Assembly (NCBI GenBank): GCA_021527695.1
Contig: JAKFAO010000003.1
Span: forward strand, 434,001 to 498,000
DNA: 64,000 nt
Source of the DNA: Naematelia aurantialba
Taxonomy: Eukaryota > Basidiomycota > Tremellomycetes > Tremellales > Naemateliaceae
Direction of reading: 5' to 3'
The notes below the pieces were generated by a model, which did not search any database, was not told the DNA's origin, and saw only the letters and a program-made list of their open reading frames with translations. Below, in pieces: positions 7,127 through 8,037 of this stretch (the first letter of the stretch is position 1; each line of letters starts with the position of its first letter). The position numbers and the translations under genes were made by a program.

Positions 7127-8037
7127 CTATGCCCAGGGGTACGAGCCGCCTGTCGCAGTCGTCAGCTTTCCATCTCACTTTGTGGTGGTTGGCCAGGTTT
7201 GAGGGTGTGGGACGGGGAAGGACGACGACGAAGAGGACGAGGACGACGACGAGAATGAGGACGACGACGAGCGGAAGACGGTCACTCACAGCTGGGGCCA
7301 AAGCACGCAGCTTTTACGGAGGGCTCGGGGGCGGGAGCGGCCTCAGCCTCAGCCTCACGCTTCCACGGGTAAGAGCCACCTAGACGAGTCAGAACTGACT
7401 GCGGGCGGAGTCGTAGCAGATGTGAACGGGTACCGAAGAGCGGGAGAGCAAGCGTCGGGGGAAGTCGGCGGTCACTCACAGCTGGGACCGAAGCACGCAG
7501 CTTTTACGGAGGGCTCGGGGGCGGGGGCGGCCTCAGCCTCGGCCTCACGCTTCCACGGGTAAGAACCGCCTGGACGGGTCAGCTACCGAGTACGATCCGA
7601 AGCACGGAGGACGTCGATGGGAACAGGAAGGGCGGGAGAGAAAATTGCGCTTCTCATGGCAGAGGCGGTAACTCACAGCTGGGGCCAAAGCACGCAGCTT
7701 TGACGGAGGGCTCGGGGGCGGGGGCGGCCTCAGCCTCGGCCTCGCGCTTCCATGGGTACGAGCCGCCTAGGGAGAGTCAGCGGCGAGGCAAGATAAACAA
7801 ACGGAGACAACGCGTGATAGCGATGGCGAGGGGCTAGACGCCGTGGCAGGCAGTCTGGCTGCATGCCGCAGACCGTTGCAGGAGGGGGCGGCGCACGGCT
7901 GCAAGAGGGGACGGCGCACAGAACGGTCACTCACAGCTGGGGCCAAAGCACGCGGCTTTCACGGAGGGCTCAGCCACGGGCGCAGCGACAACAACAGTGG
8001 CGGCGACAGCCGCAGCGATCAGGGTGACAAACTTCAT
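7127..8037 (-). CDS. Multi-copy secreted peptide precursor, alpha-factor-like, one exon per repeat
   Basis: Five exons, 8037-7935, 7766-7677, 7569-7480, 7379-7290 and 7149-7127, total 396 nt (131 aa). Exon 1 holds the signal peptide (MKFVTLIAAAVAATVVVA) and the first copy. Exons 2-4 are each exactly 90 nt, phase 1 at both ends, split inside a Cys codon. The last exon closes with CGSYPWA and a stop. Four copies of the core AACFGPSCGSYPW result. Between copies lie Lys-Arg (Kex2 site) and then Glu-Ala-Glu-Ala-Glu-Ala-Ala-Pro-Ala-Pro-Glu-Pro, six consecutive X-Ala or X-Pro dipeptides, the substrate type of Ste13-like dipeptidyl aminopeptidases. Trimming would leave SVKAACFGPSCGSYPW (16 aa) with two cysteines able to bridge. 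The first copy follows the signal peptide with AP-VA-EP in the same register. Donors are all GTGAGT and acceptors YAG. Copies are almost identical. The layout matches ascomycete alpha-factor precursors and KEX2-processed repeat proteins; the sequence is not one I recognise. Function (pheromone, signal, toxin or defence peptide) is open. Confidence 0.85.

Follow-up and report, generated by a model that had tools for sequence, protein, structure and literature searches.

The four-copy precursor gene

We analysed a 64,000-nucleotide stretch of DNA, referred to here as the window (C9:434001-498000, in a genome of 21.0 Mb and 15 contigs that was also searched as a whole), and focused on a minus-strand gene predicted to encode a secreted peptide precursor. 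The start codon of this gene lies at 8037 and its stop codon ends at 7127. Joining the five predicted exons (Table 1) yields an open reading frame of 396 nt, i.e., 131 residues. The protein begins with MKFVTLIAAAVAATVVVA, its N-terminus being a signal peptide as judged by eye, continues with APVAEP, and then consists of four copies of the sequence SVKAACFGPSCGSYPW linked by KR-EAEAEAAPAPEP. KR joins the copies at three places, each time followed by the same EAEAEAAPAPEP spacer; copy 1 stands directly after APVAEP, and the fourth copy carries an additional Ala before the stop codon. The original prediction had placed at 7127..8037 four KR-joined copies of a peptide ending in CFGPSCGSYPW, separated by spacer dipeptides that are all X-Ala or X-Pro. 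The spliced precursor bears out both statements, the latter for six of six dipeptides in each spacer.

All four introns are in phase 1 and interrupt the codon of the second Cys, so that the exon edges sit within each repeat. Each of them starts with GTGAGT, ends with YAG, and contains a CTGAC whose first base is 13-16 nt from the intron end. Exons 2-4, each of 90 nt and encoding the same 30 residues, differ at 10 columns, and all 10 differences are synonymous, where the expected synonymous share is 24% of all single changes and 33% of transitions. If the columns are independent, the chance of this outcome is ~7e-7 for all changes, or ~1e-5 for transitions. The introns are more diverged than the exons: introns 2 and 3 align with a score of 27, where the best of 200 shuffles scores 10, pairs 1-2 and 1-3 score slightly above all 200 shuffles, and the three pairs that include intron 4 do not exceed their 200 shuffles. 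At the DNA level, there are four related 114-nt copies, and a DNA pattern for PWKREA matched only three times in the whole genome, each time within this gene, with no match for the reversed control. The intron position is further supported by a relative that was predicted without splicing (P0002, see below), because its similarity to the precursor ends after the same Cys and resumes at GAYPWKR. The dipeptide register is modest evidence when taken alone; its chance is 0.030 for EAEAEAAPAPEP given the composition, and 0.024 for each of the spacers of two relatives, which are related sequences and hence not independent. We conclude from the sequence that the precursor is confirmed as a real coding gene for a secreted, four-copy product, with its splicing predicted.

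Downstream of the gene, at 6686-6755 of the window, there is a tandem run of about five copies of the 10-bp unit ACAGCCAAGC.

Resemblance of the core peptide to Qsp1 and a linked OPT gene

The C-terminal part of the repeated core resembles Qsp1 of Cryptococcus neoformans, the sequence of which is NFGAPGGAYPW (PMC5959073). Aligned without gaps, CFGPSCGSYPW is identical to Qsp1 at six of 11 positions, namely F2, G3, G7, Y9, P10 and W11. Its score against Qsp1 is 36, which none of the 98,176 unspliced 11-mers of the window equals. Shuffled versions of Qsp1 reach this score in 15 of 20,000 cases when the alignment may slide, in 12 of 100,000 when it starts from an anchor on the KR side, and, when the terminal PW is fixed, in 741 of 100,000. 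Gly7 is kept in this core and in two of the related cores described below (JGI and Kwoniella). A form of Qsp1 in which Gly7 is changed to Ala, NFGAPGAAYPW, serves as its inactive form (PMC5959073).

Because Opt1, an oligopeptide transporter (OPT), is reported to import Qsp1 (PMC7537855), we searched the genome with PF03169 and identified at least nine OPT loci. One of these, its ends placed by hand, comes to within about 0.9 kb of the left edge of the window; it lies ~8.1 kb from the four-copy precursor and ~1.75 kb from a second precursor. With nine loci in 21 Mb assumed, a lower bound, the chance of such proximity is ~0.009 for the former and ~0.003 for the latter. This search was prompted by the Qsp1 lead, and the adjacency of QSP1 and OPT1 in C. 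neoformans was looked up only later. There, QSP1 (CNAG_03012; PMC6687208) and OPT1 (CNAG_03013; PMC8092252) adjoin, with an intergenic region between them (PMC2848560, PMC3618354). The linked OPT gene also stands out in its N-terminal region, with 435 residues ahead of the OPT start motif as against 33-83 in four other loci; this comparison covers eight of the nine loci, of which five, including the linked one, contain the motif and three do not. Opt1 of C. neoformans is long too: a nonsense mutation at W932 (PMC8092252) implies a protein of no fewer than 932 residues.

Two other OPT matches, at C5:11675-14012 and C6:10346-12683, are like each other in layout and lie ~10 kb from the ends of contigs of 117 and 99 kb. 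Their main matches are equal in score and stop count, and their second matches differ slightly; this pair is perhaps a duplicated chromosome end.

Further precursors, relatives and processing genes

Beyond the original prediction, the analysis adds the resemblance to Qsp1, the terminal Ala, the OPT gene that lies a short way beyond the window, and the second precursor at 1249-815. The latter contains three non-identical units, ESNYFGPGGANPF, ARECFFGPCGATPF and EPCPLGGGCPKPF, each preceded by KR. Two of them have a Cys pair, and one is without Cys and Qsp1-like (NYFGPGGANPF). Among the unspliced 11-mers of the window, this unit matches Qsp1 best, with a score of 35 that is reached by 42 of 20,000 shuffles; the third unit shows no Qsp1 signal (score -5). 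Trimming must differ in this precursor, since its units precede IK or AK and not KR. A genome search with the second precursor gave no match besides itself.

A third precursor was found farther away on the same contig through a Kwoniella protein query, with a weak E of 0.18. Its 16 units precede KR, RR or KK; 15 are of the type FGN[VI]GMTRP[WF] and one is FGNRGAPPF, and the spacers are acidic, not of the Ste13 kind. The main core, YFGNVGMTRPW, matches Qsp1 at F2, G3, G6, P10 and W11, with a score that 94 of 20,000 shuffles reach.

Three predicted proteins from other fungi are related to the four-copy precursor, namely P0001 (Cryptotrichosporon argae Q5752_001296), P0002 (a JGI environmental relative) and P0003 (Kwoniella mangroviensis I203_05652). 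The two named species are Tremellomycetes, belonging to the Trichosporonales and the Cryptococcaceae, respectively. All three proteins have in common with the precursor an MKFF... leader followed by APVAEP, APIAEP or APVPEP, as well as KR-EA spacers and a core that starts with [STA][VL]. The cores themselves differ: CWGVGCGGASPI in P0001, CYGKSCGAYPW in P0002 (with an inferred splice), and [FY]WNPGGAPAW in P0003, which keeps the same leader and a KREAEP layout. C. argae provides the best-scoring named relative, joined to the family by leader and spacers. The spacers vary in length and letters, i.e., EAEPVAAPEP in C. argae, EAEAAPVAEP in the JGI relative, and EAEP and EAAP before an [AT]V core start in Kwoniella, while the X-Ala/X-Pro register is kept. 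The original prediction had looked to homologues for a kept register and a conserved core; the register is indeed kept, and the cores drift strongly among relatives. The P0002 core, given its inferred splice, is matched against Qsp1 by only two of 20,000 shuffles.

A fourth candidate, P0004, was set aside, as its E was 1.9 and it looked unrelated. A match of P0001 to the Pfam family NR_Repeat (nuclear receptor repeat), at 27.9 bits against a cut-off of 27, presumably reflects chance similarity between short repeats; the four-copy precursor scores 15.5 bits, below the cut-off. A tblastn search of plasmids gave no match.

The genome contains candidates for the processing enzymes, as the original prediction had suggested looking for. 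Three subtilase loci were found. One, on C10, combines Peptidase_S8 with P_proprotein and is the one Kex2-type locus in the genome; another, on C8, has an I9 propeptide and is presumably Prb1-like. The last, on C13, has S8, PA and Fn3-like domains and is a candidate for a Pqp1-like role. The serine endopeptidases of C. neoformans likewise include PRB1, CNAG_00150 and KEX2 (PMC5158083), and CNAG_00150 is Pqp1 (PMC6687208). A single DPPIV_N locus, on C2, is a candidate for STE13, and there are two WOPR (Liv3 family) loci. For the receptor named in the same proposal, STE2 (PF02116), the genome search gave no match, with the control genomes likewise silent. PF02076 identified two STE3 loci. A search for the CaaX pheromone family (PF08015) also gave no match and is uninformative, as its control was silent as well. 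That the host is a basidiomycete, which the original prediction had considered, is made probable by the two STE3 loci, by the lack of a STE2 match (subject to its silent control), and by the fact that both named relatives are Tremellomycetes.

Two other genes lie between the first two precursors. The Zn_clus and Fungal_trans domains of the transcription factor were found on hand-joined exon pieces, and the CTU2 frame is probably an unrelated neighbour. Elsewhere in the window, a long open frame on the minus strand (11472-13544) is rich in Arg-Ser repeats and by eye resembles an SR-type splicing factor.

Table 1. Positions of the four-copy precursor gene and its parts, the further precursors and the neighbouring genes. 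Positions are those of the window unless a contig is given.
Feature	Position	Strand	Description
Four-copy precursor gene	7127..8037	(-)	five exons, 131 aa, four SVKAACFGPSCGSYPW copies
Exon 1	7935..8037	(-)	signal peptide, APVAEP leader, SVKAACFGPS and first base of the following Cys codon
Intron 1	7767..7934	(-)	168 nt, GTGAGT...CTGAC...TAG, phase 1 in Cys codon
Exon 2	7677..7766	(-)	90-nt repeat unit, CGSYPW-KR-EAEAEAAPAPEP-SVKAACFGPS
Intron 2	7570..7676	(-)	107 nt, GTGAGT...CTGAC...CAG
Exon 3	7480..7569	(-)	protein as in exon 2, synonymous differences only
Intron 3	7380..7479	(-)	100 nt, GTGAGT...CTGAC...TAG
Exon 4	7290..7379	(-)	protein as in exon 2, synonymous differences only
Intron 4	7150..7289	(-)	140 nt, GTGAGT...CTGAC...CAG
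Exon 5	7127..7149	(-)	CGSYPWA and stop
Second secreted precursor	815..1249	(-)	144 aa, apparently intronless; of the precursors, the one closest to the OPT gene
CTU2 (cytoplasmic tRNA 2-thiolation protein 2) open frame	1934..3232	(-)	between the first two precursors
Zn2Cys6 transcription factor	3742..6071	(+)	between the first two precursors; start approximate
OPT gene	about C9:428525-433064		ends hand-read; ends ~0.9 kb left of the window
Third secreted precursor	C9:152574-151432	(-)	likely signal-peptide exon, 16 units

Proposed function, alternatives and known systems

Taken together, these data make it fairly probable that the secreted, multi-copy precursor gives rise to a signalling peptide of the Qsp1 type, in a Cys-paired variant. 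Its likeness to alpha-factor probably applies to processing and not to function. In the mechanism we propose, signal peptidase and Kex2 would release the units, with Kex2 cutting after KR. A Ste13-like dipeptidyl aminopeptidase would trim EA-EA-EA-AP-AP-EP and halt at SV, leaving the 16-mer SVKAACFGPSCGSYPW; the last copy would retain its extra Ala unless this, too, is trimmed. The two Cys, which are residues 1 and 6 in the 11-mer and replace Asn and Gly of Qsp1, would close a six-residue disulfide ring. SVKAA may then be cut off ahead of the first Cys by a secreted, Pqp1-like serine protease, to give a Qsp1-like 11-mer. With one disulfide, the computed [M+H]+ is 1657.714 for the 16-mer and 1201.444 for the 11-mer. 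By analogy with Qsp1, the peptide would be a density signal, imported through the linked OPT to act intracellularly.

Several observations weigh against this assignment. The match to Qsp1 extends over 11 residues only, of which five differ, both Cys positions among them; Asn1 of Qsp1 is thereby replaced. None of the protein searches brought up the Cryptococcus precursor; one of them scored the 8000 candidates sharing most words, and another, designed around the QSP1 precursor, gave nine candidates. The Qsp1 signal in Kwoniella is weak, with 438 of 20,000 shuffles reaching the best copy, GFWNPGGAPAW, and 3,420 of 100,000 reaching the main copy when W is fixed, and the cores of C. argae, which end in CGGASPI, have none (17,046 of 20,000 shuffles score as well). 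The core of the third precursor has Met at position 7 instead of Gly7 and, with PW fixed, is matched by 5,737 of 100,000 shuffles. The four-copy precursor is separated from the OPT gene by three genes, namely the second precursor, CTU2 and the transcription factor, so that in position it may be the second precursor that corresponds to QSP1. The likeness of the linked OPT to Opt1 is one of position and length. Lastly, a disulfide-ringed peptide of 11-16 residues seems large for an OPT substrate.

To weigh the alternatives, we note that the findings at this locus, i.e., a signal peptide called by eye, four cores, three KR sites, and a Kex2-type locus in the genome, are also those of a Kex2-processed basidiomycete repeat protein. 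Such a protein might have some other secreted role, whether at the surface, antimicrobial or developmental, its likeness to Qsp1 being convergent or coincidental. Several basidiomycetes are known to have Kex2-repeat precursors that bear Ste13 signatures (PMC6339444), and the strong drift of the cores among relatives, with CWGVGCGGASPI of C. argae showing no Qsp1 signal, would fit this alternative. However, it makes coincidences of the 11-residue C-terminal frame, of the linked long OPT, and of two further precursors with similar cores, and we therefore regard it as rather unlikely. The original prediction had favoured a different reading, that of an alpha-factor-like peptide, and the part of it that concerns a secreted Kex2/Ste13-style layout stands. 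A mating pheromone of the alpha type, perceived through a receptor at the cell surface, would account for this layout and for the paired Cys, as in ascomycete alpha-pheromones, and MF_alpha_N does match weakly at the signal region of a 70-residue piece of the precursor (13.1 bits, E 0.092), and in P0001 (E 0.0055). Both matches are nevertheless under the cut-off, which is 22 bits; the method that gave two STE3 loci gave no match to STE2, its control being silent too; and, according to PMC6339444, all sexual pheromones of basidiomycetes are a-type. With its core resembling Qsp1 besides, a mating role is unsupported, and we consider it quite improbable.

The two remaining alternatives are hardly credible. 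Kex2 repeats with a Tyr-containing core are also a trait of dikaritin-type precursors, that is, of ribosomal cyclic peptides modified by UstYa oxidases; yet the genome gave no match to UstYa (PF11807), in a search whose control was silent too, nor did the neighbouring frames that were scanned. It is still less credible that the locus is a non-coding tandem duplication left open by chance. The four related 114-nt copies, and a frame that depends on four predicted introns, could be read in that way, but the synonymous nature of all 10 variable columns, the four matching introns and the homologous predicted proteins in other fungi speak against it.

Qsp1 is the first peptide quorum-sensing system described in a eukaryote (PMC7537855). 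The printed view is that its key components occur in Cryptococcaceae and were a recent acquisition (PMC9790007, citing Homer 2016). Were the host of our precursor outside that family, a relative with its processing sites visible in the sequence and an importer gene close by would make the origin of Qsp1 earlier and tie it to alpha-factor-style processing. Such a relative would also show which residues carry the signal, and it would provide the orphan basidiomycete proteins with Kex2 repeats and Ste13 spacers with a known mode of action. A wider proposal, which we offer more tentatively and do not hold to be established, is that imported-peptide signalling of the Qsp1 type is older and more widespread than the Cryptococcaceae. 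Its ancestral form might have been a multi-copy, alpha-factor-style Kex2/Ste13 precursor in linkage with a Zn2Cys6 regulator and with a long OPT that served it as a dedicated importer, with several parallel peptides in the present genome, some of which would have a ring in place of Asn1 and Gly6.

The original prediction had called a precursor of this kind an unexpected class in basidiomycetes, which is too strong. Precursors with Kex2 repeats and Ste13 signatures were reported from Basidiomycota in 2019, among them one of Trichosporon oleaginosus (PMC6339444). What appears to be new is the link to Qsp1: in the text of PMC6339444 at hand, the 11-residue peptide of C. neoformans is cited as a separate case, with no tie to the Kex2-repeat precursors. 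In our literature searches we found no report of Qsp1-like, Cys-paired, multi-copy precursors, although PMC7329392 and PMC9769878, on Kex2-repeat proteins, may mention them.

Like the T. oleaginosus protein, with its QSWGGCGGRGTPCW (PMC6339444), the four-copy precursor is secreted and has KR-joined repeats and a Ste13 signature, whereas the core differs. With the ascomycete MF-alpha precursors, to which it was compared by layout and profile, it has in common the signal peptide, the KR joints, the X-Ala/X-Pro spacers and the repeated cores; two Cys in the core are also common to many filamentous ascomycete alpha-pheromones. It differs from them in the sub-threshold profile match and in the lack of a match to STE2. 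With the Qsp1 system of C. neoformans it has in common a secreted pro-peptide with an 11-residue C-terminal frame, a nearby OPT gene and a long OPT protein. The differences here are the four KR-joined copies, the two additional related precursors that this genome encodes, and Cys1 and Cys6 where Qsp1 has Asn1 and Gly6.
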